Assembly: GCA_937921935.1 (NCBI GenBank)
Contig: CAKZWQ010000006.1
Coordinates: forward strand, 1-64,000
DNA: 64,000 nucleotides
Direction of reading: 5' to 3'
Origin: an uncultured Gammaproteobacteria bacterium
GTDB taxonomy: Bacteria; Pseudomonadota; Gammaproteobacteria; Steroidobacterales; GCA-2729495
Position 1 is the stretch's first letter; every line of letters starts with the position of its first letter. Shown piece after piece: positions 3,654 through 58,569 of the stretch. A program made the translations under genes and the position numbers. Below the pieces are notes generated by a model. That model was not told where the DNA came from, searched no databases, and saw only the letters and a program-made list of their open reading frames with translations.

Positions 3654-3807
3654 TCGCCCGTACGGCCCCGGCGAAAAGCTTATCCACGCTCATTTATGGT
3701 CTTTTCGCCTCAGAAAATGTGCCTGCGCAGCAAGGTGTCAACGAAATAGGGGGACAGACAGGAAGCTGACCTGTCCGGACCAGACGCCGGGCAATGCGGT
3801 TTGCAGA

Positions 3808-4038
3808 ATGCACCCCATGAACACGCAACACAAAACGCAGAGAGGCCGGCCGCCCCTGGGGCGCACCCGGATGGTAACCATCGGTATCCGTATGGAGCCC
3901 ACTGAACGCGAGCAACTGGAAGTGCTGGCGACGAGAAGCGGTCATTCCCTGTGCGGCTATTTGCGCGAAATCATTCGTCGCGAACTGGCACAAGACGCAG
4001 CCGTAGCTGAAGACGTTCCCTTGAGAGCCTGCAGCTAA
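3808..4038 (+). CDS. Small ribbon-helix-helix-like DNA-binding protein
   Basis: A 76-residue basic protein. After a charged N-terminus (RGRPPLGRTR) comes VTIGIRMEPTEREQLEVLAT, which reads as a beta strand plus helix A, and then HSLCGYLREIIRRELAQ as helix B. This is the layout of CopG/Arc-type regulators or antitoxins. No toxin gene adjoins it: the next gene is an MFS transporter beyond a terminator. An alternative ATG at 3820 would remove four residues. The target and partner are unknown. Confidence 0.6.
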   Translation: MHPMNTQHKTQRGRPPLGRTRMVTIGIRMEPTEREQLEVLATRSGHSLCGYLREIIRRELAQDAAVAEDVPLRACS

Positions 4039-4079
4039 TTCATCCTCATATATAAAAACGATTCTCCCCCAATTATTGC

Positions 4080-4105
4080 GACCGCCATCCGGCGGTCTTT
4101 TTTTT
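4080..4105 (+). terminator. Rho-independent terminator after the ribbon-helix-helix gene
   Basis: Stem GACCGCC / GGCGGTC with loop ATCC, followed by eight or more T residues. It lies inside the longest possible reading frame of the next transporter gene and so argues for that gene's downstream start at 4157. Confidence 0.88.
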
Positions 4106-4156
4106 GCCCGGGCTTGGTGTTGGCTGCCCGCGTCTGGCAGTCTGGCTGCCCAGCCT

Positions 4157-5497: not shown

Positions 5498-5503
5498 GGG
5501 AGC

Positions 5504-6754
5504 TCAGCCCTCCGACTGCAGTAAGGCTGCCAGCATTTCCATGTGTTCCGGGGTATGGGCGTGCGACAGAAAACCCACTTCGTAGGGGCTGGGCGGCAGG
5601 TACAGACCCGCTTTGAGGCCGGCCTGAAACAATCGGCTGTAGCGCTCGCCCAGGTCGGCCGGCAGGGCCGCGGGTGAGCGCACAATCCCCTTGCCAGCCG
5701 ATGACAGCCAGAACAGGGAGCCTGTGCGCTGAAGCTGCCAGCTGGTGCTCTCGTTGACAGCCTGTTCCAACCGGGCGCCCAGAGCTTCGAGGTAGGCATA
5801 GACCTCACCGTCCACAAGAGCCGCCAGGGTTGCGTGACCGGCCGCCATGGCAATGGGGTTCGCGCTGAGGGTCCCGGCCTGGTAGACAGCACCCACGGGC
5901 GCGAGGTTTTCCATCAGGCTGCGATGGCCAGCCACTGCACCCACAGGAAAGCCACCGCCGATGATCTTGCCCCAGGTGACCAGGTCAGGCTGGATTCCCA
6001 AGTCCTGAGTGCAGCCGCCGAAACCCAGGCGAAAGCCCGTGATAACTTCATCGAAAATCAACAGGCTGCCCTGGTCCCGGCACCGTTGTGCCAGCCTGCT
6101 GAGAAAATTCCGCCGTTGCGGCAACAGGCCATAGTTAGCGGGCAGGGGTTCGATGATGGCCGCAGCGATGTCTTTGTGTTCAGCAAAGATGGCATCCAGT
6201 GCTGCTTCATCATCCAGGGGGGCTACCAGCGTGTCCGTGACCACGCCGGTGGGAATGCCCGCGCTATCCGCACTGCCCTGGCCGGCCAGTCCCGAGCCTG
6301 CGCGAATCAGCATGGCGTCCGTATGCCCGTGGTAGCAGCCGGCAAACTTGAGCAGCTTGTCTCGCCCGGTGGCAGCGCGCGCGATGCGCAAGGCGGTCAT
6401 CACCGCTTCGGTGCCGGAGTTCATAAAGCGGATCTGCTCGGCCCACGGCAACTGCTTGTTAATCAGTTCAGCCAGGGCCAGGGAGGCGGAATCTGCGGTA
6501 CCAAAACTCCAGCCGCGCTCAAGGGCGGCAGCGACCGCTGCTTTTACCGCAGGCGCGCTATGTCCCAGGATCAGTGGGCCGAAGGCCATGCAGAAATCAA
6601 CATAGCGGCGGCCGTCGATGGCCTCGATACAGGCACCGGAAGCGGATTGCATGAAAACCGGTTCGCCACCGACAGCCCGCAGGGCGCGGACCGGTGAGTG
6701 CACGCCACCCGGGGTGACACGTTGCGCGCGCTTAAGTAGCTCGTCGTCCGTCAC
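5504..6754 (-). CDS. hemL: Glutamate-1-semialdehyde 2,1-aminomutase
   Basis: Converts glutamate-1-semialdehyde to 5-aminolevulinate, the second step of the C5 tetrapyrrole route, using PLP. The 416 residues keep TPGGVHSPVRA at the N-terminus, NSGTEAVMTALRIAR, GCYHGHTDAMLIRAGSG, FDEVITGFRL and the PLP-lysine motif WGKIIGGGFPVGA. The tail PEHMEMLAALLQSEG ends a few residues early compared with typical members. It is the last gene of the coupled operon cysG-cysK-hemA-hemC-hemB-hemL; its ATG overlaps the hemB stop by four bases. Catalytically it looks intact. Confidence 0.93.
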   Translation of the reverse strand: MTDDELLKRAQRVTPGGVHSPVRALRAVGGEPVFMQSASGACIEAIDGRRYVDFCMAFGPLILGHSAPAVKAAVAAALERGWSFGTADSASLALAELINKQLPWAEQIRFMNSGTEAVMTALRIARAATGRDKLLKFAGCYHGHTDAMLIRAGSGLAGQGSADSAGIPTGVVTDTLVAPLDDEAALDAIFAEHKDIAAAIIEPLPANYGLLPQRRNFLSRLAQRCRDQGSLLIFDEVITGFRLGFGGCTQDLGIQPDLVTWGKIIGGGFPVGAVAGHRSLMENLAPVGAVYQAGTLSANPIAMAAGHATLAALVDGEVYAYLEALGARLEQAVNESTSWQLQRTGSLFWLSSAGKGIVRSPAALPADLGERYSRLFQAGLKAGLYLPPSPYEVGFLSHAHTPEHMEMLAALLQSEG

Positions 6755-18911: not shown

Positions 18912-20267
18912 GTGTCCAGTTCAGCATCAGAAGCCACGGCCGGCGCTGCCGTGCCAGGCCAGGAGGGCCTGAAGTTCGGGCCCCTGCGAATGCAGCCTGG
19001 CGTGCGCCCCAAGCACTTGTTCGCGCTCTATTTTGCCTCCTTTTTCGGCATCGCGAGCATGAGCTTCATCAATACGAGCCAGCCCTACATATTCACTGAG
19101 ATCCTGAATATCCCGCTGTCCGAGCAGGGCAATTTGTCTGGCGATCTGGTTACGGCCCAGGAGGTGGCCTTGCTTTGCATGCTCGCCTTTGTCGGCCCAC
19201 TCTCCGACAAGTTTGGCCGCAAGCCCGTGTGGATTGGGGCCTTCCTGCTGCTGGGCCTGGCGTACTTTTTATACCCGATGGCCACCACCCTGATGATGCT
19301 GTTCAGCTTTCGCATGATTTTTGCAACGGGCGTGGCAGCCAACCAGGTCATGTTGCCGGCCGTGGCGAACGACTACACCCAAGAGCATTGTCGGGCCAAG
19401 ATGATCGCATCCTGTTTTATTTTTAATGGCCTCGGGCTGGTGTTGCTTATCAGTTTCCTGCGTGGGTTGCCGGTGACATTCACTGAAACGGGCATTGATC
19501 CCGTCACCGCCGGCAAGTATTGGTTGTGGACGGTTTCGGGTTTCTGTCTGTTGGTGGCCGTGGTCCTTGCCATATTTCTCAAGCCCGGCGCACCTAAGCA
19601 GCTGGAGAAGCGCGAGCCGATCATGGCCACGCTGCGCGTGGGATTGAGGGCCGGGCGCAGCGGCCGGATTCTGTTGGCCTACGCGGCTGCAGGCGTGTCC
19701 CGTGGCGACTTGGCCGTGATGAGTACCTTCTTTACGCTCTGGCTGACCCAGGTGGGTATCGGACAGGGCATGAGTACCGCAGAGGCTGCCAAGACAGCGC
19801 TGTTGTTTTACGTCATCGTGCAGGGTTTTGCCCTGCCGGCTGCGCCCATTGCCGGCATCATCCTGGACCGCATCGATCGCGTCGCCGGTCTCGCCATGGC
19901 GATGTTGATCGGTGCCGTGGGTTACGGTTCGCTCTTTCTGCTAGAGGATCCCCTGGGCAGCGGCATGTATATCTGTGCGGCCCTGATCGGCTGCGCCGAA
20001 ATGTTCGCCAACCTCTCGGCGACCTCGCTGATCGGCAAGGAGGCCCCTGAGCGAGGGCGGGGGGCGGTGTTGGGCATGTGGAGCTGGTTTGGAGCCCTGG
20101 GCATCCTGCTTGTGGCGCAAGTCGGCGGTTACCTGTTTGACAACGTCAGTAAGATCGGCCCCTTCATGTTTGTCGCAAGCGCCAATTTTGCCCTGATGGT
20201 TTTCGCCATTTACCTGTACCTGAAGAGCCGAAGCCAGGCGGCGGCAGCTGCGGCACAGAACATCTGA
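18912..20267 (+). CDS. MFS transporter, window paralogue 2
   Basis: A 451-residue, 12-helix major facilitator. Subfamily marks are FGPLRMQPGVRPKHLFAL, SEQGNLSGDLVTAQEV, PLSDKFGRKPVW, RGDLAVMSTFFTLWL and GKEAPERGRGAVLGM. The GTG at 18912 is preceded by AAGGGGAAAA. It opens a same-strand cluster with a Tat-exported DUF1838 protein, an aldehyde dehydrogenase and a further paralogue, so it probably imports a substrate of that route. The substrate is unknown. Confidence 0.88.
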   Translation: MSSSASEATAGAAVPGQEGLKFGPLRMQPGVRPKHLFALYFASFFGIASMSFINTSQPYIFTEILNIPLSEQGNLSGDLVTAQEVALLCMLAFVGPLSDKFGRKPVWIGAFLLLGLAYFLYPMATTLMMLFSFRMIFATGVAANQVMLPAVANDYTQEHCRAKMIASCFIFNGLGLVLLISFLRGLPVTFTETGIDPVTAGKYWLWTVSGFCLLVAVVLAIFLKPGAPKQLEKREPIMATLRVGLRAGRSGRILLAYAAAGVSRGDLAVMSTFFTLWLTQVGIGQGMSTAEAAKTALLFYVIVQGFALPAAPIAGIILDRIDRVAGLAMAMLIGAVGYGSLFLLEDPLGSGMYICAALIGCAEMFANLSATSLIGKEAPERGRGAVLGMWSWFGALGILLVAQVGGYLFDNVSKIGPFMFVASANFALMVFAIYLYLKSRSQAAAAAAQNI

Positions 20268-20344: not shown

Positions 20345-21343
20345 ATGCAGCATGAGCGTAGAGATTTTTTAAAGGGCTTTGCCGGAGTCGGCGCGGCGGG
20401 AGCGATGGGTATGGCTCTCAGCTCCATGAGTGAGCAGGCCCGGGCTGGCGGCCATGCGAAGACTCAGTATGGGCGCGGGCCGGCCATCAAGGGCCCTTAC
20501 CTGGACCTGACCACGGGCCGGGGTAATCAGCTCGCCTACGCGCGGCTGCAGAGCGACATCGATTTCGGCAAGCAGAAGTTTTTCTGGTTCCGTGGCTATG
20601 TGGCCGGTAATCGGCCGATGAAGAAGATTGATAATCTCATCGGTGCCCAGGGTTTCGGTGTCATTCGGCTCAACGAGCGCGACGACGGCGTGATTGAACG
20701 CATGTGCCGAGAGATCATTCTGTATACGGATCTGCGCACCGGCGAAGTGCTGGAAGAATGGGATAATCCTTACACCGGCGAAACCGTCAACGTTGTGCAG
20801 GTATCCAACGATCCTTACAACTACACCATTGATAAATACTTTCCTCCTCCGCCACAGTTCGGTGGCCTGAACAAGGAGAAGGCCCCGCCCAAGATTCCTT
20901 TCATTTTGCCCTGGTATCAAAACGGTAATCGCCTGGATATGGAGATTCACATCCATCTGGCCTATCCCAGTGCGCTGCAGCCGGACAAATGGCCACGCGA
21001 GTCTGCCGGTCCCATTGCCCAGGTTTCCGAGATGTTTGCGCATCATGTGACAGCCGAGGATATGCAGAATCCCGACATCACGAGTCTGGACTACAGCGGC
21101 ACCTGGAATCGTGTCACGCCGTGGCTGCCCTGGATGCTGATGGGGCAGATGCCGGGTCATTGCATGTACCAGTGTTTCATGGGGACCTGTGGCCATCCCA
21201 GCGAAGTGTTGTCCCGTTCCGCTGTGGACTACGCCGAGAAGAATTACCCCAAATATTTTGAAGCGCCGACGACCATGGAGGGCGAGAGCCTGTCCAGCCT
21301 GGAGCGCTACGCTATGGAGCAGAAGCCTGCGCCCGTGAAGTAG
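20345..21343 (+). CDS. DUF1838 protein, Tat-exported, copy 1
   Basis: A 332-residue protein of the uncharacterised DUF1838 family. The N-terminus is a twin-arginine signal (ERRDFLKGFAGVGAAGAMGM, cleavage near ARAGGHA), which suggests a folded, possibly cofactor-bearing periplasmic protein. Family marks shared with copy 2 at 41529 are YTDLRTGEVLEEWDNPYTGE, PFILPWYQ and the region around KWPRESAGPIAQVSE. MPGHCMYQCFMGTCGHPSE holds three Cys and two His that could bind a metal, but no known motif was recognised. The gene lies between an MFS transporter and an aldehyde dehydrogenase. Confidence 0.85.
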   Translation: MQHERRDFLKGFAGVGAAGAMGMALSSMSEQARAGGHAKTQYGRGPAIKGPYLDLTTGRGNQLAYARLQSDIDFGKQKFFWFRGYVAGNRPMKKIDNLIGAQGFGVIRLNERDDGVIERMCREIILYTDLRTGEVLEEWDNPYTGETVNVVQVSNDPYNYTIDKYFPPPPQFGGLNKEKAPPKIPFILPWYQNGNRLDMEIHIHLAYPSALQPDKWPRESAGPIAQVSEMFAHHVTAEDMQNPDITSLDYSGTWNRVTPWLPWMLMGQMPGHCMYQCFMGTCGHPSEVLSRSAVDYAEKNYPKYFEAPTTMEGESLSSLERYAMEQKPAPVK

Positions 21344-23088: not shown

Positions 23089-24423
23089 TTGAAAACAGAC
23101 CCCACAACGGCTGAACTGGACGATCAGGGCCGCAAGTTTCTCTTTGTCTGGCTGCAGCCGGGAATCACCGGGCTCAATGCCGTGTTCTTCCTGTATGCGG
23201 CCTTCGCCACCATTGGCCTGCTGACCTTTGTTTCGCCCGGCACCGCGCTGGTGCTGAATGCCAACTTCGGGATGCCCGCCAATGAACAGGGCACCGTCAG
23301 CGGCGACCTGGTGCTGATAACCGAGATCGTCCAGATACTGGTATTTGGCGTGGTGGGTGTGATCTCTGATCGCATCGGTCGCCGTGAACTGTTTGCCGCC
23401 GGTATCTTCATCATGGGCCTGGGCTACCTGCTGTATCCCTTTGCCGAGTCCGTGCCGGAACTTTTGATCTATCGTGGTATCTACGCGCTGGGTCTGGGTG
23501 CCTCCACCGGCATGCTGGGCACGATCCTGGCTGACTATCCGCAGGACCGGTCCCGCGGCAAGTTCGTGGCGCTGGCCGGCTTCTTCAACGGTATCGGTGT
23601 ACTGGTGGTCACCGTGGTCTTTGGTCGGCTCGCGCCGCCCGCGTTCATTGAGATGGGCTATGACGCGATGCAGACCACCAAGATCGTGCACGTCATCGTA
23701 TTTACGGCCTGCGCCGTGTCCGCGGTGATATATATGCTGGGCCTGAAAAAGGGCACGCCCGGCAAACACGAGGAGCGCCTGCCCTTTAAAGAGCTGGTGG
23801 TCAGCGGCTATGCAGAAGCCGTGCGCAACCCGCGCATTGGTCTGTCCTATGCGGCGGCCTTCGTAGCCCGCAGTGACCTGGTGATTCTCGGCACTTTCAC
23901 GGTGCTGTGGGGCACCGTGGCCGGTGTCAGCCAGGGCATGGACCCGGCGTTGGCGGCCGCCCGCGGCGCCGGTGTGTTTGGTATCTCCCAGGGCGGCGCT
24001 TTGCTCTGGTTATGCGTGCTCGGCGTGTTCCTGGATCGATTCAACCGGGTGACCGGCACAGTTTTCTGTATGGGCATGGCCGCGATTGGTTACAGCTCCA
24101 TGCTCTTCGTGGAGGATCCGCTGGCCCGCGAATCCATACCCTTGTTCCTCCTGCTGGGTGTGGGGCAGATCAGTGCCTTCTTCGGCGCCACGACATTAAT
24201 CAGCCAGGAAGCACCGAAGCTCAGTCGCGGCGCGGTGGTGGGTGCCTTCAACACCTGCGGTGCCATAGGCATCCTGGTGGCCGGTGGTCTCGGCGGTCGA
24301 TTGTTCGATGCGATTGCACCGTCTGCACCTTTCGTACTGATTGGAATCCTGAATGCCTGCGTGATGCTCTTTGCGATCTATGTGCGTATCAAAGCACCGG
24401 GCCCAATACCCGTGAAGGCCTGA
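23089..24423 (+). CDS. MFS transporter, window paralogue 3
   Basis: A 444-residue, 12-helix major facilitator of the subfamily seen four times here: LFVWLQPGITGLN, NEQGTVSGDLVLITEI, GVISDRIGRRELF, RSDLVILGTFTVLWG and SQEAPKLSRGAVVGA. The TTG at 23089 is preceded by TTGGAGA at the right distance, and no in-frame ATG gives a complete first helix. It ends the DUF1838/dehydrogenase cluster. Two different paralogues in one cluster could take up two related substrates or separate uptake from export. Confidence 0.86.
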   Translation: MKTDPTTAELDDQGRKFLFVWLQPGITGLNAVFFLYAAFATIGLLTFVSPGTALVLNANFGMPANEQGTVSGDLVLITEIVQILVFGVVGVISDRIGRRELFAAGIFIMGLGYLLYPFAESVPELLIYRGIYALGLGASTGMLGTILADYPQDRSRGKFVALAGFFNGIGVLVVTVVFGRLAPPAFIEMGYDAMQTTKIVHVIVFTACAVSAVIYMLGLKKGTPGKHEERLPFKELVVSGYAEAVRNPRIGLSYAAAFVARSDLVILGTFTVLWGTVAGVSQGMDPALAAARGAGVFGISQGGALLWLCVLGVFLDRFNRVTGTVFCMGMAAIGYSSMLFVEDPLARESIPLFLLLGVGQISAFFGATTLISQEAPKLSRGAVVGAFNTCGAIGILVAGGLGGRLFDAIAPSAPFVLIGILNACVMLFAIYVRIKAPGPIPVKA

Positions 24424-24712: not shown

Positions 24713-27166
24713 TTACTTGGATGAATGATCGAGCTGCGGTTTCCAGCCCCGCAGCAGGAGCGAGTTGGTGACCACGCTGACGCTGCTTAGCGCCATGGCC
24801 AGGCCCGCGAGGGCCGGGCTCAGCAGGCCGGCGGCTGCCAGGGGAATGCCCACCACGTTATAGATGAACGCCCAGAACAGGTTCTGCTTAATTTTCCTAA
24901 AGGTGGCGCGGCTGGCTGAAATGGCACCACTGACCAGGCGCGGGTCCGGTCGCATCAGGGTAATTCCGGCGGTTTCCATCGCGATGTCCGTACCCGTCCC
25001 CATGGCAATGCCCACGTCAGCAGCTGCCAGTGCTGGTGCATCATTAATGCCGTCGCCAATCATGCCCACGGCATAACCTTCCGCCATGAGTTGTTCTACG
25101 GCCTTGGCCTTGTCATCCGGCCGCATGCCGCCCCGGGCTTCGTCGATATTGGCTTGCTGACCAATGGCTTCAGCCACCAGTGGCGCATCGCCCGAGAGCA
25201 TCAGGGTGCGAATATTCTGCTCGCGCAGCGCCCTGACAGCCTCTGCGGCCTCAGCCTTGAGCGGGTCGGCAATGGCGAAAATGCCCAGCAGACCGGCATC
25301 GTCAGCAACCCAGATGACAGTCTTGGCTTCCCCTTCCCAGGCGCGCGCGCGCGCCAGTTCGGCAGACGGGTCCAGCTGGTGTTCGGCCAGGAGTTTTTCG
25401 TTGCCGATCACGATGCGTTGCTCGCCCACCCGGCTGACGAGTCCGCGACCGGTATAACTCTGAAAATCGCTGATAGCCTGCAGCGCGATGCCGCGCTCTT
25501 CGGCCAGTTCCAGCAAGGCTTTGGCCAGGGGATGCTCACTGCCCTGCTGCGCCGATGCAGCCAGCCCGAGCAGGGTGGCTTCATCGCCCCGCAGGGTATG
25601 CAGATCCGTGACCTTGGGTCGCCCCTCCGTCAGGGTGCCTGTTTTGTCGAAGATTACGGCACTGATTCGATGGGCCCGTTCCAGCGACGCGACGTCCTTA
25701 ATCAGAATGCCCGCCCGGGCGGCTGCGCCGGTACCCGTCATGATGGCGGTGGGTGTCGCCAGGCCCAGTGCGCAGGGGCAGGCAATGACCAGCACTGACA
25801 CAGCGGCGATCAGCGCCGACTCAAAGTCCCCGGCCGTGAAATACCACGCCAGAAAAGTGATCGCCGCGATGACTATGACCGTGGGTACAAATATCGCCGA
25901 GATGCTGTCAACCAGTCGCTGCACCGGGGCTTTGCCGGCCTGGGCACTTTCAACCAAGCGGATAATTCTTGACAGGGTCGAGTCTTCGCCCACAGTGGTG
26001 GCGCGAAGCTCCAACAGGCCCGTGCCGTTGATGGCCCCACCGGTGACTTTGTCGCCGGCGCTTTTTAGTACCGGCAGGCTTTCCCCGGTGATCAGGGACT
26101 CGTCCAGTTCACTTTGACCACTGACAACCTCTCCATCCACGGGAATGCGTTCGCCGGGCTTGACGATGATCAGCGCGCCCGTGGTGATGCTGGCGACGGG
26201 GAGTTCCACTTCGCTGCCGTCATCCTGACGCACACGCGCCGTTTGGGGGCGCAGGTCCATGAGTTGCCGAATGGCAGCCGTGGTACCGCGCTTGGCGCGG
26301 GCTTCCATGAATTTTCCCAGTAACACCAGCGTAATGATGACCGCGGATGCCTCGAAATAGAGTTGACCTTCTGCGGCAGTACCCAGCGTACCGATCAGAT
26401 ACCAGCTGTAGAGGTAGGCGGCACTGGTGCCCATCACTACCAACACATCCATGTTGCCGGAGCCGGCCCGCACCGCGTTCCAGGCGGCGCGATAGAAACG
26501 CGCGCCGACCAGGAACTGCACCGGTGTGGCCAGCAGCACTTCCATGAAGGGCATCAGATGAAAGTCGAAACCAAGCCAGGTGGCGAGCATCTGGCCTACC
26601 AGGGGGGTGGTCAGCAGGGCTGAAAAAATCAGCCAGCGACGCTCGCGCTCGAGTTGCGCTTCAGCCTCAGCTCGATGCCGCTCTTCTGCGCGGGCTTCAT
26701 CTTCGCCGGCGCCACTGATCAGCAGGCGATAGCCGGCTTTCTCCACGGCCTCGGCCAGTTGTTCAAGCTTGACGCCGCCGTCAATGGTCGTGATGTCGGC
26801 CCGCTCCAGGGCAACGTTCACGCTGGCTTCTACGACACCGGGTACCTTGTTCAGCGCTTTTTCGACCCGTCCTGCACAGGCGCTGCAGGTCATGCCACTG
26901 ACGGGAATAGCGTACTGGTTGCGACTGACGCTGAAGCCGGCTTTGCCGATCACGTCGCTGATCGTCGTGATGTCGGTCTGGGACGGCTCGAAATCAATGG
27001 CCGCGCGCTCCAGGGCGAAGTTCACGCTGGCCTGGTCGATGCCCGTCGCCCGCTTGAGGGCTTTCTCCAGCCGGACGGCGCAGGCGCCGCAGGTCATGCC
27101 CTGCACCGGCAGTTCTGCATGGGCCAGCTCGGCGGCGAGGGGTGTAGCTTGTAATTCGGCACTCAT
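24713..27166 (-). CDS. copA: Copper-exporting P1B-type ATPase
   Basis: An 817-residue inner-membrane copper pump. Two N-terminal HMA domains carry GMTCGAC (about residue 23) and GMTCSAC (about residue 93). The transmembrane metal site is [14 protein letters not shown], followed by the phosphorylation motif [17 protein letters not shown] and [16 protein letters not shown]. The Cys-Pro-Cys with downstream ALGLATP is the Cu(I) type (P1B-1). It is the first gene of a two-gene copZ unit. A small hairpin (TAGCGG/CCGCTA, 27200-27216) lies upstream; no clear CueR-like site was identified. Confidence 0.95.
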
Positions 27167-48751: not shown

Positions 48752-48995
48752 CGCAGCACTCCGAGGCGGATTAACAGGGTCCGGTCATTCACTCTAACGG
48801 CTTAAACATAAGAACGATAAATGCCGTTCTACCGGTTTGATCTGGGCGCCAGGGCCAGGGCCAATGCAGATTGCGGCGGCAAGCGAGGGGCCCGGCCTGT
48901 CAACCAAGGGCCGCGGGCGGCGTTTTGTACTCCAGGAGCCGCAGCAGGCGGCGTTTGGACCGGCCGGGATCACCGGTAAACCAGGGAGTTGGACC

Positions 48996-50147
48996 ATGAC
49001 AGCACGTATTTACAGCAGCTTGGGCATTGGCGCGATGATCATTCTGGCGGCAAGTCTCGCCTTACCCGTGACTGCGATAGCTGCCGATAGCGACAACATT
49101 GTGTTGGCGGCGAAGAACGGGCGGCAAGCAGGTCGTCAGGGTTCGGCGCGCAGCAATCGCGGGGCGGCCCGCAGCGGCGAGCGCAGAAGCGCGTCCCGCC
49201 AGGGCAGCTACAAGCGCGAATCCACGGCCACCGGTCCCGGTGGACAGCAACGCACGCGCACGGAGCAGGGCAGCTGGGATCGTGATGCCGGTACCCGCAC
49301 CCGGGAACGCACCCGGACCGGCGCCGATGGGCGGACGGCGACTTCGTCGAGCACGCGCCAGCGAACCGACGATGGCTTTACGCGCAACTCCACTCGCACC
49401 GGCCCCGATGGTCGCCAGGCAACGCGTGATACCACAGTGACCCGTGATCGAGACAGCGGCACTCGTACGCGGGACAGCCTGACCACCTTGCCCGACGGGC
49501 GCACGGCAACGTCTTCGAGTACACGCCAGCGAACTGACGATGGTTTTACGCAGAATTCCACCCGGACGGGTCCTGAGGGTCAGACCGTGAGTCGGGATAC
49601 CACCGTCAGCCGGGATGCCGAGAGCGGCACCCGTTCGCGGAACAGCGTGACCACCTTGCCGGACGGGCGCACGGCGACTTCGTCGAGTACGCGCCAGCGA
49701 ACTGATGACGGCTTTACCAGTAATACCACCCGGACCGGGCCTGAGGGCCAGACTGTGAGTCGGGATACCACCGTCAGCCGGGACGCCGAGAGCGGCACCC
49801 GCACCCGCGACACGGTGACCACACTGCCTGACGGACGCACGGCCAGCACCTCGGTCACCAATCAGCAAACGGATGACGGCATGATCCGCAGCGTTACGCG
49901 AACCGGGCCCGATGGCCAGATTGTCACTACCGAGAGCGCACGCAAGGTGGACCGCGAAGCCGGCATCGCCACGCGCGATACAGTAACGACACTGCCGGAC
50001 GGCCGCACAGCGAGTATTGCCGCGGTAACGGAGCGCACAGACAGTGGCCGCTTGCGGACGGTGACCCGCACGGGCCCCGACGGTCAGGAGGCGACCCGGG
50101 TAACGGAAACGGAGTTCGATCTGGGCGGCGAGGCAAGCGTTGACTAG
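48996..50147 (+). CDS. Exported protein with 56-residue repeats
   Basis: A 383-residue protein with a signal peptide (AASLALPVTAIAADS) and a basic Arg/Ser/Gly stretch. Repeats of about 56 residues follow, each with DGRTATSSSTRQRTDDGFT, RTGP(D/E)G and (V/T)SRDTTVSRDAESGTRT or close variants. At DNA level units start near 49325, 49493 and 49661, a 168-base period; later units are more diverged. It is hydrophilic, rich in Thr, Arg, Asp and Gly, with no Cys. No family was recognised. AGGGAG precedes the ATG and a strong terminator follows. Confidence 0.75.
   Translation: MTARIYSSLGIGAMIILAASLALPVTAIAADSDNIVLAAKNGRQAGRQGSARSNRGAARSGERRSASRQGSYKRESTATGPGGQQRTRTEQGSWDRDAGTRTRERTRTGADGRTATSSSTRQRTDDGFTRNSTRTGPDGRQATRDTTVTRDRDSGTRTRDSLTTLPDGRTATSSSTRQRTDDGFTQNSTRTGPEGQTVSRDTTVSRDAESGTRSRNSVTTLPDGRTATSSSTRQRTDDGFTSNTTRTGPEGQTVSRDTTVSRDAESGTRTRDTVTTLPDGRTASTSVTNQQTDDGMIRSVTRTGPDGQIVTTESARKVDREAGIATRDTVTTLPDGRTASIAAVTERTDSGRLRTVTRTGPDGQEATRVTETEFDLGGEASVD
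49325..50090 (+). repeat. Tandem 168-bp coding repeats
   Basis: Three near-identical in-frame units (starts about 49325, 49493, 49661) and two or three degenerate ones encode the 56-residue repeats. Differences are mostly at synonymous third positions, which suggests selection on the protein. Confidence 0.8.
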
Positions 50148-50222: not shown

Positions 50223-51548
50223 TCAGGGCGGAGCATCGGCCGCGGCGACCGTCGCCCCCTGGGTGCCTAATCTTAACTCCGCCAGGCGCCGCCCTGCGGC
50301 GCAAAGCAGAACAATCCCATTGGCTGTTGCGACGGCGATGAAAGGTGCATTCGGGCCGAAGGCGTCATACAGTCGCCCACCGCCATAGGAAATCATCAGG
50401 ATTCCCCAGGCACCGCAGAATGCCTGCATACCGAAAGTTGAGCCCCGAATCCTGGCAGGCGATTCCTGCGCCAGCAGCACGGTTGCGGCCAGCTGGCTAC
50501 TCGACAGGCCCATCCCCAGCAGCAGCAGGGCAGGAATGGCCAGCGGCGAGAGAATATCGTCGATTGTCGCCACCCAGCCATAGCCGAGGGTGGCAATGGC
50601 GAAGGCCACGACCAGCAGTGTCAGCTTGTCCATTCGATCGGCAATAAAACCGAATATGGGCGCCCAGATCACCGAGGCAATCTGCAAAGTGCCAATGATC
50701 ATGCCGGCACGGGCGGTTGCTTCGGCCGTCGACACCGTATCGCTGCTGGCCGCCTGAACCACCCACAGTCCCAGGAACAATGTGACAATTACCATGTCGG
50801 CGCGCGCCGCGAAAGCGCTCAGATAGGACAGGGAGATCCTCACATTGCGTCCGGCGGATACGCCTTCCGCCAGGAGTGTGAGCACCGGTGTTTTCGGCGC
50901 ACTGTTATCGGGCCGACCCGGCTTGAGGCCGAGCATGACCAGCGCCGCGAGCAGGCAGATGGCGGCCACGAGGAGGTAGGAATAGCGGCCTGCCCATAAT
51001 TCCTCGACGCCCCGGCCGCTCAGTATCGCCGGCAAGCGGGCCAGGCCCAGGTTAAAGAATATGGCCCCGAGCCCGTTGAGGAAAAAAGCGATCCCCGTTA
51101 GCTTGCCCCGGGACTTTTCATCAGCGTAGTCCGCAAGAATCGCAGCCAGGCAGGTGGTCGTTGAGGCAATGCCCAACGCGAAGACCAGGCGATAGGCGAT
51201 CAGTTCCTGGGGTGTTGTCGCGAAGGCGTAGATGCCATAAGCGAGGAACATGATCAGGAAGCCGATGACGTAGACCAGGCGGCGGCCAATACGGTCCGAC
51301 AGCACACCCCAGAAGCCCAGGGTGAAGAGCAGCACGATCTCTTGATAGAACTGCAAATCACCCGAGACTGTGCCCTGGTCTGCCTCCGGCAGACCCAGGT
51401 TGACGTTAAAGACAAACGGCGTCAGCGTAACCAGGTAGGTGTAGACACCAATGCTGATGAAGGCCGCGAACAGGTAACACAGGACATGCCGCGGCAGTAC
51501 ACCCGGCGCCAGGCCAATGGGCCCCAGCTTGCGTCTTTGCTCTGTCAC
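50223..51548 (-). CDS. MFS transporter, window paralogue 4
   Basis: A 441-residue, 12-helix facilitator. Subfamily marks: LGPIGLAPGVLPRHVLCYL, EADQGTVSGDLQFYQEI, GVLSDRIGRRLVYV, RADMVIVTLFLGLWV and AQESPARIRGSTFGM. Its ATG overlaps the stop of the P-type ATPase by four bases, so it is translated with a metal pump. That differs from its three paralogues and suggests a link to metal or metal-complex transport, which is inference. Confidence 0.88.
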   Translation of the reverse strand: MTEQRRKLGPIGLAPGVLPRHVLCYLFAAFISIGVYTYLVTLTPFVFNVNLGLPEADQGTVSGDLQFYQEIVLLFTLGFWGVLSDRIGRRLVYVIGFLIMFLAYGIYAFATTPQELIAYRLVFALGIASTTTCLAAILADYADEKSRGKLTGIAFFLNGLGAIFFNLGLARLPAILSGRGVEELWAGRYSYLLVAAICLLAALVMLGLKPGRPDNSAPKTPVLTLLAEGVSAGRNVRISLSYLSAFAARADMVIVTLFLGLWVVQAASSDTVSTAEATARAGMIIGTLQIASVIWAPIFGFIADRMDKLTLLVVAFAIATLGYGWVATIDDILSPLAIPALLLLGMGLSSSQLAATVLLAQESPARIRGSTFGMQAFCGAWGILMISYGGGRLYDAFGPNAPFIAVATANGIVLLCAAGRRLAELRLGTQGATVAAADAPP

Positions 51549-53920
51549 GACTGCCGCAGCAGGCGCATGCCGTTCAGGGTCACCAGCAGGGTTGCGCCCA
51601 CATCAGCGAGCACCGCCATCCACAGGGTTGCAATACCGGGTATGGCCAGCGCGAGAAAAGCCAGCTTCAGAGCGAGGCTCAGCACGATGTTCTCTTTGAT
51701 AACCCGGCGCGACTTGCGCGCCATGCGCAGTGCCAGGGGCACGCTGGAAAGATCATCTTGCATCAGGACCACGTCGGCTGTCTCCATGGCCTGGGCTGTG
51801 CCGCCGCCGCCCATGGCAATACCGATGTCGGCACGGGCCAGGGCGGGCGCGTCGTTGATGCCATCGCCCACCATGGCGGTGGCCCCGGCAAATTCTCGCA
51901 GGGTCTCGATTGCCTGAAGTTTTTCCTCAGGTAGCAGGCCGGCATGGACTTCGTCGATGCCGGCCACGGCGGCCGCAACGCGCTCGGCAGCGCGGGGCTG
52001 ATCGCCCGTCAGCATGACGCGACGGATAGGCGGGTCAAAGTCACCAAGTTCCTGCAGCGCGGCGCGGCTGGCATCGCGGATCTCATCCTGCACGCCGATA
52101 TAACCCACTACCTTGTCCTGGCGGGACACGTACATGACGGTGTCACCCTGGTCACTGGCGGCCTTCGCATGGGGCGATACCTGGTCCCAACCTGCCATGC
52201 TGTCATCAAACATCTCGCCCTTGCCGACGGCAACCTTGTGCCCGTTGCCGAGTTGGCCGCTGACCCCACGCCCGGGGTGCGCCATTACTTCAGTGGCCAT
52301 GGGGAATCGATGGGCCACATCCCGCTGGCCGGCGGCCGTGATGATGGCGTGGGCGACGGGGTGCTCTGATGCGCGTTCCACTGCAGCCGCTGCGGCGACC
52401 AGTTCATCGCAGTCGCCACAGTCTCCATTTTGTTCGGCCGGATGCTCGCAATCGCTGGCCCGGATACCGGTCACGGTGGGTCGGCCGTGGGTCAGGGTGC
52501 CCGTCTTGTCAAAGGCCACAACCTGAACATCAGCCAGTCGATCCAGTTGCGCACCGCCCTTGACCAGAACGCCGAGATTCGCCAGGCGCGTCAGGCCACT
52601 GACAACCGTGACGGGGATGGAGATAACCAGCGCGCAGGGGCAGGCAATAATCAACAGGGTCAAGCCCCGATAAAGCCAGCCAGTCACACCATCGGCCGTG
52701 GTCAGCAGGGGCTGACCAAATCCCACTACCGGGATAAGCACGGTCAGCGTGGCAATCAATACCACCGCCGGTGTGTAGTACTTTGCAAAGCGATCGATAA
52801 AGCGTTCCTGCGGACTGCGCTGGGCTTGCGCCTGCTCAACCAGTTTCGCGATGCGCGCGATAGTGCCATCGGCAGCCGGGCGGGTTACGCGCACTTCAAT
52901 GGCCGCTTCGCCGTTGACTGTGCCGGCCATGACATCATCACCGGTCTCTTTGACCACGGGCACGCTCTCACCAGTGACGGGTGCCTGGTTGACGGAGGAG
53001 ATGCCATTGATCACTTCGCCGTCTACCGGAATGCGTTGCGCCGGACGCACCAGGACGCGATCGCCAACCTGCACCTGGTCAACGGGCACTGTGACCTGGT
53101 GGTCATGGCTGCCGTGAGCATGCTCATGTCCGGCATGGTCTTCGTGCTGGTTTGCCTGGCCGTGGTCATGACCGTGATCGTGGTCATGGTCGTCATGTTC
53201 ATGGCCCGCATGTTCTTCGTGGTTATCGTGGACGTCGTCAGCGTGGGCTCGCAGCACCGTCGCTTCCTGGGGCTGCAGGGACATCAGACTGCGCAGGGAG
53301 TCGCGGGCGCGTTCGGCGCTATAGGCCTCCAGGGCCTCGCCGAGCATAAATAACAGGATGACGGTCACGGCTTCGCCGGTTTCGCCGATTCCCAGGGCGC
53401 CAACGCAGGCCACCGCCATCAGCAGATCGATAGTGATGCGCTGCGCGAAAATCAGGGCGCGCACGCCTTTTATAAAAACCGGTGCGCCGGCAACCAGCAC
53501 CCCGGCGCCGAACAACAGGCTCAGCGCAGGCATTCCCGCCACGTTCAGGTCGAACGGAATAGCAACCAGGCCGATGATCACGGCCGCCGTGACAAACAGG
53601 GCGCGCCGCAGGGGCGGTTGCTCCCAGAGGAAATGCAGAAAGCCACTCAGGCCCCGATGTTCCACCAGGTCCTCGGGTGCAATCCCCGGTTCGTCCTGGG
53701 CAATGCGGTAACCCAGTTCCTTGAGGCGTTGCTGTATAGCCTCAATGCTGACATCGCCATCAACATCCATGGTTTCCGTGGTGAAGCTGACGCTCGCGTC
53801 GTTCACCCCCGGCAGCTTGCGAATGCTGTTTTCGATGGTCATGGCGCAACTGCCGCAGTCCATGCCGGCAATCTTGACTTGAATTGGCTGTGCCGCGACG
53901 GCGGCGCTGGCTTCACTCAT
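51545..53920 (-). CDS. zntA: Zn/Cd/Pb-type P1B ATPase with a His-rich insertion
   Basis: A 791-residue pump. The N-terminal HMA domain has GMDCGSCAMTIENSI. The membrane site is CPCALVISIPVTVVSG, the zinc/cadmium/lead type, with DKTGTLTHGRPTV and [16 protein letters not shown]. In the cytosolic loop before VPVDQVQVGDRVLV, about 50 residues contain some 18 His among Asp, Glu and Gly (HDDHDHDHGHDHG core), a probable metal-binding flap. The promoter upstream (53962-53993) is of MerR type, and the MerR gene is just upstream on the same strand. The downstream MFS gene overlaps by four bases. Confidence 0.92.
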   Translation of the reverse strand: MSEASAAVAAQPIQVKIAGMDCGSCAMTIENSIRKLPGVNDASVSFTTETMDVDGDVSIEAIQQRLKELGYRIAQDEPGIAPEDLVEHRGLSGFLHFLWEQPPLRRALFVTAAVIIGLVAIPFDLNVAGMPALSLLFGAGVLVAGAPVFIKGVRALIFAQRITIDLLMAVACVGALGIGETGEAVTVILLFMLGEALEAYSAERARDSLRSLMSLQPQEATVLRAHADDVHDNHEEHAGHEHDDHDHDHGHDHGQANQHEDHAGHEHAHGSHDHQVTVPVDQVQVGDRVLVRPAQRIPVDGEVINGISSVNQAPVTGESVPVVKETGDDVMAGTVNGEAAIEVRVTRPAADGTIARIAKLVEQAQAQRSPQERFIDRFAKYYTPAVVLIATLTVLIPVVGFGQPLLTTADGVTGWLYRGLTLLIIACPCALVISIPVTVVSGLTRLANLGVLVKGGAQLDRLADVQVVAFDKTGTLTHGRPTVTGIRASDCEHPAEQNGDCGDCDELVAAAAAVERASEHPVAHAIITAAGQRDVAHRFPMATEVMAHPGRGVSGQLGNGHKVAVGKGEMFDDSMAGWDQVSPHAKAASDQGDTVMYVSRQDKVVGYIGVQDEIRDASRAALQELGDFDPPIRRVMLTGDQPRAAERVAAAVAGIDEVHAGLLPEEKLQAIETLREFAGATAMVGDGINDAPALARADIGIAMGGGGTAQAMETADVVLMQDDLSSVPLALRMARKSRRVIKENIVLSLALKLAFLALAIPGIATLWMAVLADVGATLLVTLNGMRLLRQS

Positions 53921-53961: not shown

Positions 53962-53993
53962 ATCCTGACCCTTTAAGCAGGGTTTAAGGTCAA
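53962..53993 (-). promoter_or_regulatory. MerR-type promoter/operator of the P-type ATPase gene
   Basis: On the minus strand TTGACC (-35) and CAGGAT (-10) are separated by 20 bases, the overlong spacing used by MerR regulators. The spacer holds the imperfect dyad GACCTTAAAC / TTAAAGGGTC. It shares TTGACCTTAAACC with the site at 54849. Confidence 0.75.
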
Positions 53994-54033
53994 GCCCTGA
54001 TCAGGGCTGCAACGGGGGTTCCCGCGCAAGGGC

Positions 54034-54801
54034 TCAGGCCTCAGTGGCTTCCAGGGCCAGGAAAAGCTGGGCAAACAGGAAGGCATTTGGCCCCCGGGCC
54101 CGAAACAGCAGGCCCCGGTCCTCGCTGGAGATCTCCGGCTCCAGGTGAGCATCACAGTCGGATTCCGACGCCGCCAGCCGGGCCAGGGCCGCGGCCAGGG
54201 CAGGCTCAGGATCGGCGAACAACACGGCGTAGGCATCATCCTCGCGCCAGATGTGCAGGTGCTGACCCCGCAGGTCTTCGAACAAGGTGTCCCATTCAGC
54301 CGCCGCCAGGTTACAGCCCAGACGTTGGGTCAGCTTGCGCAAGGTAGTAGAGGCCTGCGTGTGCCCATGTTCATGGCCGCAGGCCTGTTCCAGTAGCTGC
54401 CGGTATTGTTCGCCGGAGGATTCGCCCACGGACTTGTCCAGGAGTACCGCGACATCGTCCAGGAACAGTTCCAGTTCATGCCTCAGTACCAGCATTTCTG
54501 TAACTCTTTGTTCTATATCTATAAAACGTTGTTCTGCGATATCGCGTATCCCTTTCCCGCCGTCAGTCTCAGCTGCCTCCGTGCCCAGGATCAGCCGGAT
54601 GTCGTTCAGGGAAAAGCCATAGCGCTGGGCGCTGCGAATGAATCGGAGGCGGCGTTCGGCGTCCGGCGAATAGAGCCGATAACCCGCTTCGCTGCGTCCC
54701 GCAGGCCGCAGCAGGTTCTCCTTCTCGTAGTACCTGAGTAAAGAGGTGGACACGTTGGCTCGTTTAGCCAGTTCGCCGATGGTTAGAGGCTGTTGCTGCA
54801 T
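54034..54801 (-). CDS. MerR-family regulator with long C-terminal domain
   Basis: A 255-residue regulator. The first 70 residues are a MerR winged helix: LTIGELAKRANVSTSLLRYY, ENLLRPAGRSEAGYRLYSP and SAQRYGFSLNDIRLIL. A helical dimerisation segment follows, then an unusual C-terminal half with CGHEHGHTQ, a possible metal site, and a domain (LHIWREDDAYAVLFADPEPA) not found in CueR or ZntR. It lies 113 bases before the ATPase gene and next to the ABC exporter promoter. Two matching operators make a metal or thiol stress signal likely. Confidence 0.88.
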   Translation of the reverse strand: MQQQPLTIGELAKRANVSTSLLRYYEKENLLRPAGRSEAGYRLYSPDAERRLRFIRSAQRYGFSLNDIRLILGTEAAETDGGKGIRDIAEQRFIDIEQRVTEMLVLRHELELFLDDVAVLLDKSVGESSGEQYRQLLEQACGHEHGHTQASTTLRKLTQRLGCNLAAAEWDTLFEDLRGQHLHIWREDDAYAVLFADPEPALAAALARLAASESDCDAHLEPEISSEDRGLLFRARGPNAFLFAQLFLALEATEA

Positions 54802-54848
54802 AGGAGTAATGTGTGTGGATTGGCTGAAGTGCCCGCAGCAGGCGGGGG

Positions 54849-54880
54849 TTGACCTTAAACCTAGCTTTCAGGTCTAGGAT
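54849..54880 (+). promoter_or_regulatory. MerR-type promoter/operator of the ABC exporter genes
   Basis: TTGACC (54849-54854) and TAGGAT (54875-54880) are 20 bases apart. The spacer carries GACCTTAAAC-CTAG-CTTTCAGGTC, a dyad with eight of ten matches. It points at the ABC gene starting at 54955 and repeats the first 13 bases of the ATPase promoter. Confidence 0.75.
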
Positions 54881-54954: not shown

Positions 54955-56715
54955 ATGCTAGGAGTCGACGACAGGCTGGTTACACCAGACACGCTCAAAT
55001 GGGTCAAGGTGGGCCTGGTCGCCGGATTGGCGACCATTCCGACGACCATTCTTTTGTACTACGTGCTCGGCTTGACTGTTGATGGTGCTTATACCGACGG
55101 CATCAACGCGGTCCGCGAGTGGTTCTGGATTCTTGCCGGCCTGGTGCTTCTCAAGGCAGTGCTGGCCTGGACTTTCCGCACCGGCCAGTTCCGCGCCTCC
55201 AGCGAGGCCAAGCTGAATGTCCGGGACCAGATCTATAAGAAAGTGGTGGACTTGGGGCCTGGCCTGCTGGGCAAGCGTCGCACCGGTGAAATCGCCAACA
55301 CTGCGACGGAAGGTGTTGAGTACCTCGACTACTACTTCAGTGTCTACTTCGTGCAGATCTGGGTTGCCATTGCGATCCCGTTATTTCTGGTTGCAGCCAT
55401 TTTCTGGATCGACTGGGTAGTTGGTCTGTGGATGCTTGCCGGTGTACCTCTGACACCCTTGTTTGTGGGTTCCTCCGCGCGGGGTTTCCGCCGTATCAGT
55501 TCCAAGAACGAAGACGTCAAGAACCGCAACAGCGCCCAGTACCTCGATTCCATTCAGGGTATGTCCACCCTGAAAATGTTCAACGAGGAAATCCGTCGCG
55601 GCAAGCAGATGGAGGACGACAACGAAGTTCAGCGCAAGATCACCATGAAGTTGCTGCTGGTTGCTCAATCACAGTTCGTCTTCCTGGAGCTGGGTTTTGC
55701 CCTGTTCTCCACGGCGGTTGCCATGGGTGTGTCCCTGTACCGCTATACGGGGGGCTTCATGACGCCGGGTGAGGTGGTTGCCGTCGTTCTGCTGAGTCTG
55801 GAATTCAGTCGTACCCTGCTATTGGTGGGTGAATTTTTCTTTGCCGGTGCCCTGGGCCGGGAAGTGGCCGCGAAGATAGTCGAGTTCCTGGATGAAAAAG
55901 TCCCGGTGCGCAGCACCAAGGGTGCCCATGGCGGCCGCACCGATGGCCGTGCTATCAGCATCGAGTTCCGCAACGTGAACTTCACTTACCCGGGCGCTGA
56001 GGAGCCTTCTATCAAGGATCTCAGCATCAAGCTGGAGCCCAATGAAACCGTAGCTTTGATCGGCAAGAGCGGTTCGGGCAAAACCACGGTCACGAATCTC
56101 ATGCTGCGGACCCTGGACCCCCAGTCCGGGGTCATCCTGTTTGACGGCACGCCGGAAGAAGAACTCTCGGTGGAGTGGGTCCGCGAGCAGATCGCCCTGG
56201 TTCCCCAGGATCCCTTCCTGTTCTTCGGTACCATCGCGGAAAATCTGCGTATGGCCAAGGAACATGCAAGCGATGAAGAGTTGCTGGAGGCTTTGAAGGC
56301 TGCTGAGTTGCTGGACTTCGTGCAAACCAATCCAGCCGGCCTGAACACCATGGTCGGTGATCAGGGAATGGCCCTGAGTGGCGGCCAGGCGCAGCGGCTG
56401 GCCATTGCGCGGGCTATTCTCAAGGATGCCCCCATCGTTATCCTCGATGAACCCACCTCGCAGATTGATGTGGAAACGGAGGCTTTGCTGAACCGCGCCC
56501 TCGAGCGCCTGTGCGCCAGCAAAACCGTGCTGCTGATCGCCCATCGTCTGAGCACTATCGAGCAGGCGAGCCGCATTATCGTGATGGATCATGGCGCGTT
56601 GGCCGAAAGTGGGACCAAGGAAGAACTCGTTGCGCAGGGCGGCATTTATGCCAGCATGCTGCAGACCAAACGTGAAACCGAGCACGCGGCGCCAATCCCC
56701 GCCGCGGCTGTTTAG
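54955..56715 (+). CDS. CydD-like ABC exporter subunit
   Basis: A 586-residue half transporter: six-helix membrane domain (about 1-310), then an ATPase domain with Walker A IGKSGSGKTT, signature ALSGGQAQRLAIARA, Walker B IVILDEP and the switch LLIAHRLST. The segment DLGPGLLGKRRTGEIANTAT with EGVEYLDYYFSVY is typical of CydD, which with CydC exports thiols or heme. The D-loop region reads DEPTSQIDVE, a variant of DEATSALD. The gene sits behind a MerR-type promoter and 21 bases before its partner; no cytochrome bd genes are near. Confidence 0.85.
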   Translation: MLGVDDRLVTPDTLKWVKVGLVAGLATIPTTILLYYVLGLTVDGAYTDGINAVREWFWILAGLVLLKAVLAWTFRTGQFRASSEAKLNVRDQIYKKVVDLGPGLLGKRRTGEIANTATEGVEYLDYYFSVYFVQIWVAIAIPLFLVAAIFWIDWVVGLWMLAGVPLTPLFVGSSARGFRRISSKNEDVKNRNSAQYLDSIQGMSTLKMFNEEIRRGKQMEDDNEVQRKITMKLLLVAQSQFVFLELGFALFSTAVAMGVSLYRYTGGFMTPGEVVAVVLLSLEFSRTLLLVGEFFFAGALGREVAAKIVEFLDEKVPVRSTKGAHGGRTDGRAISIEFRNVNFTYPGAEEPSIKDLSIKLEPNETVALIGKSGSGKTTVTNLMLRTLDPQSGVILFDGTPEEELSVEWVREQIALVPQDPFLFFGTIAENLRMAKEHASDEELLEALKAAELLDFVQTNPAGLNTMVGDQGMALSGGQAQRLAIARAILKDAPIVILDEPTSQIDVETEALLNRALERLCASKTVLLIAHRLSTIEQASRIIVMDHGALAESGTKEELVAQGGIYASMLQTKRETEHAAPIPAAAV

Positions 56716-56736: not shown

Positions 56737-58569
56737 ATGACGACCCTGAAAAGCACGGCCGGGCCTCTTCCGAACGTTAGCAATTACCAGATCATCAAGC
56801 GCCTGCTGAAGTTCATGCAGCCGTTCAACACCATTATGATCACCTCCCTGGTGGCGCGCGTGGCCAAGTTCTGTGGCCAGGCCGCGGTGCTCGGCATCGC
56901 AGCGGCGAGCGTCGGCATTTATATCAGCAGCGCCGAGCCCGGCGTGGTGAACTGGGATGTTATCTGGACCCAGGTGAAGTGGATTGCCCTGGCGGGCACC
57001 CTGGTGGGGCTGATGTCCTACATCGAAAACTACACGGGCCATTACGTGGCCTTCCGGATTCTCGCGGCATTTCGCGACCGGTTCTACTATTCCATGCTGC
57101 CCCTGGCCCCGGCCAAGACGGCCAAGCTGCAGTCGGGTGACGCGGTTAGCCGGGTCATGACCGATTGTGAGCGCATCGAGCCTTTCTATGCCCACACGAT
57201 CGCGCCGGCTATTGCGGCCTTTTATGTGCCCATCATTATTCTTGCCTGGTGCTGGACGGTGAGTCCGACCATCGTGTATGTACTGGCCCCGTTCTATATT
57301 GCCAACACCCTGTTGCTGCCCTGGCTGGTATCGAAGCTGGGCGGGGACGGTATCCAGTATCGTGAGCAGCTCGGGCAGGTTAACGCCTTTGTGTCCGATA
57401 GCATTCAGGGCGTTCGTGACACCATCGCCTTTGGTTATGAAAATCGGCGCGCTAAGGAGCTTTTTGAAATCGGGGCTACCATGCAGGAAGGTCAGGAAAA
57501 GCTCTACGGCGCTGACGCCTGGCAACGTGCCCTGGCGGAAATTTTCATCACCGTCGGCATCCTGGCATCGGCCTGGGTAGGGATTGAACTGTCCCTGGCT
57601 GGCGAAATCGACCCCTTGGTCGATTTACCCGCCATCATTGCCGTATCCGTGGTCGGCTTCTACCTGTCAGTGGGCCTGGCGAACAATTACACGGATTTTC
57701 GAGTGTCGCTGATTGCCGCTCGTCGCCTGTTTTCCATGATGGATCAGGCCCCGGCCGTGACTGATACGGCGACGGCGCCGGTTGCCGGAACCATCGAGCC
57801 CAAGATTCGTTTCAGCGATGTGACTTTTGAATACGACGCTGACGATGCGGCCTGGAGTCGCGAGAAGAAGGTCTTTGACGGTCTTTCTCTGGATATCGAG
57901 CCCGGCAGGCATGTAGCCCTCGTCGGGCCGAGTGGCACCGGTAAGTCCACCATCGTCAACCTGCTGCTTCGCCAATGGGATCCCCAGTCAGGCAAGATTG
58001 AAATTGGCGGTCACCCCCTGACGGAATTCCCGCTGGCTGATCTGCAGCGCTATATAGCCGTTGTCTCGCAGCGTAGCTATATTTTCAATGACACGGTGCG
58101 CGAGAATATTCGCATGGGTCGTTATGACGCTACCGATGAAGAAATTATGGCGGCTGCGGAAAAGGCCGGCCTGACCAAATGGCTGGCCAGTACACCGGAC
58201 GGCATGGAAACCCAGGCCGGTGAGCGCGGCAGCAAAATTTCCGGTGGCCAGCGTCAGCGTGTGGCGATTGCCCGCGCGATCCTGAAGGACTCACCGATTG
58301 TGCTGCTTGACGAAGCCACGTCCAGCCTGGATGTGGAAACCGAGCGTAGCGTCATGGAGGCCTTGCGGATTCTCACGGCGGGCCGGACGACGCTGACTAT
58401 CGCGCATCGCTTGTCCACGGTAGTGCACACTGACGAGATCCTGGTCATGCTTAAGGGGCGGATTGCCGAACGTGGCACTCACGAGGAGCTTATGTCCCGG
58501 GGCGGCTGGTACGCGCGCATGTTTGAGATGCAACAGGACGAGGTTGACGCGACGCTGGTTGCTCACTGA
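56737..58569 (+). CDS. CydC-like ABC exporter subunit
   Basis: A 610-residue half transporter and the likely heterodimer partner of the gene before it. The membrane domain (to about 330) includes LQSGDAVSRVMTDCERIEPF, and the ATPase has Walker A VGPSGTGKST, ISGGQRQRVAIARA, VLLDEATSSLDVE and LTIAHRLSTVV. All ATPase motifs are canonical. AAGGAGAGG precedes the ATG. It ends the operon, closed by a strong terminator. Substrates of relatives include glutathione, cysteine and heme; here metal-thiol conjugates are a reasonable guess. Confidence 0.85.
   Translation: MTTLKSTAGPLPNVSNYQIIKRLLKFMQPFNTIMITSLVARVAKFCGQAAVLGIAAASVGIYISSAEPGVVNWDVIWTQVKWIALAGTLVGLMSYIENYTGHYVAFRILAAFRDRFYYSMLPLAPAKTAKLQSGDAVSRVMTDCERIEPFYAHTIAPAIAAFYVPIIILAWCWTVSPTIVYVLAPFYIANTLLLPWLVSKLGGDGIQYREQLGQVNAFVSDSIQGVRDTIAFGYENRRAKELFEIGATMQEGQEKLYGADAWQRALAEIFITVGILASAWVGIELSLAGEIDPLVDLPAIIAVSVVGFYLSVGLANNYTDFRVSLIAARRLFSMMDQAPAVTDTATAPVAGTIEPKIRFSDVTFEYDADDAAWSREKKVFDGLSLDIEPGRHVALVGPSGTGKSTIVNLLLRQWDPQSGKIEIGGHPLTEFPLADLQRYIAVVSQRSYIFNDTVRENIRMGRYDATDEEIMAAAEKAGLTKWLASTPDGMETQAGERGSKISGGQRQRVAIARAILKDSPIVLLDEATSSLDVETERSVMEALRILTAGRTTLTIAHRLSTVVHTDEILVMLKGRIAERGTHEELMSRGGWYARMFEMQQDEVDATLVAH

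Follow-up and report, generated by a model that had tools for sequence, protein, structure and literature searches.

A predicted MerR-family regulon that joins a Zn/Cd-type P-type ATPase to a CydDC-like ABC exporter pair

RESULTS

Two outward-facing MerR-type promoters flank a single merR gene

The window, by which we mean the whole 64,000-nucleotide stretch of DNA that was analyzed, contains a merR-type gene with transporter genes on both sides. The features of the locus are as follows.

50223 to 51548, minus strand: MFS transporter, 441 aa; shares 4 nt with the ATPase gene (operon)
51545 to 53920, minus strand: P1B-2 (ZntA/CadA-type) heavy-metal ATPase, 791 aa; HMA motif GMDCGSC, CPC, K752, D773, and a His-rich cytosolic loop at about residues 230 to 275
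53962 to 53993, minus strand: promoter 2, MerR type; -35 TTGACC, 20-bp spacer, -10 CAGGAT at 53967 to 53962; ahead of the P-type ATPase and MFS genes
54034 to 54801, minus strand: merR-type regulator, 255 aa; MerR helix-turn-helix and dimerization helix (residues 6 to 125), C-terminal Cys/His domain (residues ~128 to 255)
54849 to 54880, plus strand: promoter 1, MerR type; -35 TTGACC at 54849 to 54854, 20-bp spacer, -10 TAGGAT at 54875 to 54880; ahead of the ABC pair
54955 to 56715, plus strand: ABC_D, CydD-like half transporter, 586 aa; 403 bits to TIGR02857 (cut-off, 435)
56737 to 58569, plus strand: ABC_C, CydC-like half transporter, 610 aa; 326.4 bits to TIGR02868 (cut-off, 329.05)

The initial annotation had described two promoters, each with a dyad and a 20-base spacer, facing outward from one merR gene, and at both places the sequence reads as it claimed. 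The merR gene lies between the promoters, which are both directed away from it. In the window, TTGACCTTAAACC occurs exactly twice, at 54849 to 54861 (plus strand) and 53993 to 53981 (minus strand), and its other matches carry three mismatches. An imperfect dyad of the form ACCTTNAA-N6-TTNAAGG(T) lies inside the 20-base spacer of both promoters. The -10 element of promoter 1 is 75 nt from the start of ABC_D at 54955, with ABC_C then starting at 56737; that of promoter 2 is 42 nt from the ATPase start at 53920, and the MFS gene overlaps the ATPase gene (51548/51545). Neither promoter appeared in the output of a generic sigma-70 scan (spacers of 16 to 18 bp), as expected, since their spacers are 20 bp. 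When the whole 3.04-Mb source genome (94.5% complete) was searched with the full-dyad pattern TTGACCTTNAA...GGTC, only two sites were found, both at the merR locus, and the reversed pattern gave no match in the same genome.

The ATPase scored above the cut-off of TIGR01512 (479 bits versus 313.5) and also passed that of TIGR01525. It has CPC at residues 427 to 429 in TM6, the K752 and D773 residues of the last transmembrane pair, and the HMA motif GMDCGSC, and the His-rich cytosolic loop is common to several members. These features identify a pump of the P1B-2 type, predicted to be of the Zn/Cd/Pb class. For the MFS protein, the closest named models were MamH and MamZ, with a score far under the cut-off.

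Other genes in the window were recorded in passing. Two further MFS genes (18912 to 20267 and 23089 to 24423, both plus strand) have N-terminal halves that look like that of the 50223-to-51548 gene by eye, and both lie near a gene for a TAT-signal DUF1838 protein (20345 to 21343). A second P1B ATPase (24713 to 27166, minus strand), with two CxxC HMA domains and CPC, is copper type by its features, and a third P1B ATPase is on a different contig. Past the MFS end of the locus, a plus-strand gene (48837 to 50147) encodes a repetitive protein with TRTGPDGR and TTLPDGRTA repeats.

The regulator carries an invariant Cys/His set in a C-terminal domain outside Pfam

The N-terminal part of the regulator has the winged helix-turn-helix and dimerization helix of the MerR family (PF13411, 9e-17; PF00376, 9e-15; PF09278, 5e-11), and the AlphaFold model aligns over this half to SoxR, CadR, and CueR with Z scores of about 9 to 12.5. 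The regulator was rejected as a ZntR, CadR, or CueR equivalog, since its scores fall under the NCBIfam cut-offs and its cysteine pattern differs. The two ZntR models gave 83.4 and 90.3 bits against cut-offs of 168 and 143, and the CadR-PbrR, CueR, and MerR models gave 62, 68.5, and 72 bits against 151, 147, and 151. The cysteines of ZntR, CadR, and MerR(Hg), at the start of the dimerization helix and in the loop after it, are absent from the window regulator, whose only three cysteines are C141, C163, and C216, with none in residues 1 to 140.

Full-length relatives of the regulator were collected from 99 related genomes, giving 34 sequences with 45 to 73% identity to the window copy (own copy included). 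C141, C163, H181, H183, C216, and H219 are invariant in this alignment, and H143 is present in 33 of the 34 members; we infer that this C-terminal Cys/His set binds metal. The domain that holds it, about 125 aa long, had no Pfam match in the window protein and no consistent one among 29 members, and a match to the precorrin isomerase (CobH/CbiC) family, of the kind seen in CoaR, was likewise absent from the Pfam results for this region. Predicted alone (pLDDT, 79), the domain has a helix-rich start followed by repeated beta-beta-alpha units. A Foldseek search with this model returned nothing at an E value of ≤0.001 (the best, at 0.019, being designed proteins), VIA-align gave Z scores of at most 7.7 (I-DmoI and the ArgR C-domain), and a PDB profile search with the domain gave no significant match. 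The domain was found in 41 of 296 genomes of the host order and in 1 of 398 genomes of a phylum-wide sample, that one being the source genome. Among plasmids, no record spanned 80% of the protein, and the matches were to the MerR domain only. As judged from its sequence, the regulator is a lineage-restricted MerR subtype with a C-terminal domain outside Pfam. This domain, the most unusual part, is not mentioned in the initial annotation.

The ABC pair groups with CydDC and differs at heme-ligand positions

Both half transporters fall below the NCBIfam cut-offs for CydD and CydC. The best model for ABC_D is CydD, whereas ABC_C is matched best by MsbA models, with CydC next. In a tree of 36 sequences with long branches, ABC_D groups with CydD (support, 98/93) and ABC_C with CydC (86/78, or 100/99 once fused relatives are counted in), both outside MsbA and MdlAB. 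The nearest plasmid-borne relatives of the pair are 33 to 37% identical and are fused Agrobacterium-type or CydDC-type proteins. One of the former (L144, positions 2156 to 5761), a fused CydD-CydC-like protein of 1,201 aa from Agrobacterium plasmids, represents a third branch of the CydDC lineage, with His at the positions of CydC-85, CydD-312, and CydC-136.

Cytochrome bd subunit I (PF01654 above cut-off) was found in none of 25 genomes of the host family, f1. This result rules out a canonical CydDC that serves the bd oxidase. Of the two axial heme ligands, CydC H85 is kept as H102 in 23 of 23 sequences, and the residue at CydD H312 is Phe in 24 of 24; two fused relatives, like Escherichia coli and Rubrobacter, have His at the latter position. 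Among the other E. coli heme ligands (PMC10374445), R77 and R81 are missing from the ABC pair, and R136 has become His in it, as it has in the fused relatives. Because these residues differ, the substrate pocket has probably changed relative to that of E. coli CydDC.

A thiol or a metal-thiol compound is the substrate that we favor; the export of metal-thiol complexes, which the initial annotation suggested, is thereby a possible function and stays hypothetical. One explanation of this kind is that the pair is a general exporter of thiols (glutathione or cysteine) that supplies periplasmic reductant and is co-regulated with metal efflux for periplasmic repair, with no export of a metal complex. 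GshA is present, which makes glutathione synthesis probable, and E. coli CydDC has been reported to be a glutathione exporter (Pittman 2005, as cited in PMC7689651 and PMC10304878). Residues C144, H102, and H153, which are conserved in ABC_C, would on the other hand suit a metal-bearing substrate, and sequence cannot separate the export of a thiol from that of a metal-thiol. We regard purely reductant export as possible, with some reserve.

The pair could instead export heme or another tetrapyrrole as canonical CydDC would, with a regulator that senses heme, a metalloporphyrin, or a metal interfering with heme synthesis, so that the system guards against metal-porphyrin stress. The sister relationship to CydD and CydC in the tree, the retention of the axial ligand H85 of CydC (PMC10374445), and the precedent of CoaR, a MerR-family protein that has a C-terminal domain of the tetrapyrrole type and regulates a P-type ATPase (PMC7689651), are consistent with this explanation. 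However, the loss of CydD H312 and of R77, R81, and R136, the lack of cytochrome bd in the host family, and the lack of a CobH/CbiC match in the regulator all argue against it, and we consider heme export quite unlikely.

The predicted operator is conserved upstream of ABC, ATPase, and MFS genes in related genomes

Orthologous promoters were scanned for the dyad alone, with no -10 element required. All 29 orthologous ABC_D genes and all 26 orthologous ATPase genes were preceded by a site; the three misses were paralogs of 30 to 31% identity. These 55 promoters comprise 44 in the window or in loci picked by the regulator alone and 11 in loci picked through a site; the site was present in 44/44 of the former and 11/11 of the latter. 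MerR-family promoters have a dyad in a spacer of 19 to 20 bp, and the spacer was 20 bp in 55/55 of the aligned promoters. Positions 28 and 32 were A and T in every one, giving a TANNNT-like -10 element at exactly 20 bp, and the bases past position 32 were little conserved. A held-out set, whose loci were picked by regulator or ABC matches without the use of sites, had a site in 17 of 17 promoters (ABC_D, 9/9; ATPase, 8/8), again with the -10 A and T at 20 bp. The search of related genomes for the same sites, which the initial annotation had named as a check, was thus positive for all MerR-selected and all held-out promoters.

A scan of 28 whole genomes, allowing ≤1 mismatch, gave 51 sites, and 46 of them precede an ATPase (22), ABC_D (22), or MFS (2) gene. 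One more adjoins an MFS fragment (G018), and 4 precede unrelated or unassignable genes. Since the pattern was built from the relatives' sites, their number is not independent evidence, whereas their position before three types of genes is. A backwards-pattern control gave no site in any of the 28 genomes, and four genomes that lack this MerR regulator also had none. At L150, L151, L152, and L157 (genomes G010, G017, and G024), operator-like sites lie elsewhere than before an ABC_D, ATPase, or MFS gene; two of these precede genes for proteins of 261 and 273 aa that have similar starts (GMLVPGGWE and GILQPGGLE) and no Pfam match.

Unlinked extra copies of the ABC pair with their own site occur in G011, G018, G027, G030, and G033, and the same is true of an unlinked ATPase gene (G013) and of separate MFS genes (G011 and G027). 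These copies make it unlikely that autoregulation alone accounts for the site on the ABC side. Promoter 1 does lie in the divergent merR-ABC region, where a site for merR autoregulation would classically be placed, and in principle only the ATPase side could be a true target, with the ABC-side site a by-product and ABC control nonfunctional; but ABC copies without an adjoining merR keep the site (L153 to L155, L166 to L168, and L178), and in one genus group (G014, G034, G036, G038, and G039) the ABC pair and the ATPase gene stand back to back, away from merR, with one site each, which makes this explanation highly improbable. That a different MerR-type regulator of the genome binds the dyads is scarcely credible, for although the operators of CueR, SoxR, and ZntR are similar in kind, a protein search of the source genome (G000) found no MerR relative other than this regulator at an E value of ≤0.001, and a genome without the regulator but with two short MerR paralogs (G009) has no sites. 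The proposal that a Zn/Cd-type ATPase, an MFS protein, and a CydDC-like pair belong to a single MerR-type regulon is borne out by a predicted site that is kept before all three across families, including far from merR, and the predicted co-regulation of the ABC pair with the ATPase and MFS genes is well supported by this comparative evidence.

The ABC pair accompanies the regulator in the host family

The order ABC_C-ABC_D-merR-ATPase-MFS is kept in several genera and in another family (G863, G952, and G982). Within family f1, the presence of merR correlates strongly with that of the ABC pair: the two occur together in 28 genomes, the regulator alone in 2, the ABC pair alone in 1, and neither in 9 (Fisher P = 2e-6, with relatedness ignored). 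In both regulator-only genomes (G003 and G017) the locus is cut by a contig end, and the ABC-only genome (G035) is 78% complete. The ABC pair exists in two divergent forms, with about 78% and about 50% identity to the window pair. Family f6 and genome G970 have merR and the ATPase gene with a site and lack the ABC pair, which is therefore not an obligatory part of the regulon. From this distribution, it is reasonable to infer that a regulator-ATPase core came first and that the ABC pair was recruited later.

DISCUSSION

We think it probable that the locus forms a metal-efflux regulon in which one MerR-family activator of an undescribed subtype controls export by both an ATPase and an ABC transporter. 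In the proposed mechanism, a MerR dimer would occupy the long spacer and repress both promoters. A Zn(II)/Cd(II)/Pb(II)-class ion, or its complex, would be bound by ligands among C141, H143, C163, H181, H183, C216, and H219, and the metal-bound regulator would twist the DNA so that RNA polymerase could read both promoters, as in the long-spacer mechanism of MerR proteins (PMC9909328). The ATPase would then move the free ion to the periplasm, and the CydDC-like heterodimer would export an accompanying substrate, for which a low-molecular-weight thiol or its metal complex is the likeliest candidate, and so protect the cell from the same stress. A more specific version would make the regulator a new class of MerR sensor, in which the C-terminal Cys/His domain reads not the bare ion but a metal-thiol or other metal-ligand complex and turns on the free-ion ATPase together with a dedicated, CydDC-derived exporter of the complex; this version we consider unlikely.

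The initial annotation did not recognize a regulon of this composition, and the open-access literature gave no account of a locus with MerR and a CydDC-like pair. The comparative data point to a real and apparently undescribed metal-defense circuit. Backed by comparative genomics, such a regulon connects metal efflux with a CydDC-type exporter in hosts without cytochrome bd, and the debated substrate of CydDC-type exporters (thiol or heme) could thus be tested apart from oxidase assembly. In addition, a MerR sensor with a non-Pfam, Cys/His-invariant domain could add a new solution for metal recognition to the family.

Comparison with known systems

The ABC pair shares with CydDC its organization as a heterodimer of half transporters, the grouping of the D protein with CydD and of the C protein with CydC, and the His residue at CydC position 85. 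It differs from CydDC in its scores below the NCBIfam cut-offs, the loss of CydD His312, the MerR-type promoter, and a host family without cytochrome bd.

To our knowledge, CoaR is the sole precedent for a MerR-family protein that regulates a P-type ATPase and bears a large additional C-terminal domain. The CoaR-CoaT system of Synechocystis resembles the present one in having a MerR-family sensor, such a domain, and a P1-type ATPase as target (PMC7689651). The CoaR domain is like precorrin isomerase (CobH/CbiC) and has a Cys-His-Cys motif, whereas the window regulator has another Cys/His pattern.

Atm1 is a homodimer. With Atm1/AtmA-type exporters of metal or glutathione compounds, the locus shares an ABC exporter proposed to act in metal resistance; AtmA of Cupriavidus metallidurans is cited for Ni/Co resistance in PMC10304878.

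The closest likeness of the DNA-binding half is to the ZntR models (90 bits), and the dyad in a 20-bp spacer and the Zn/Cd/Pb-type ATPase target are shared with zntR-zntA, cadR-cadA, and pbrR-pbrA. In contrast to ZntR, CadR, and PbrR, the window regulator falls under every equivalog cut-off and has no Cys before residue 141, and it possesses an extra Cys/His domain and a second target promoter, that of the ABC pair.
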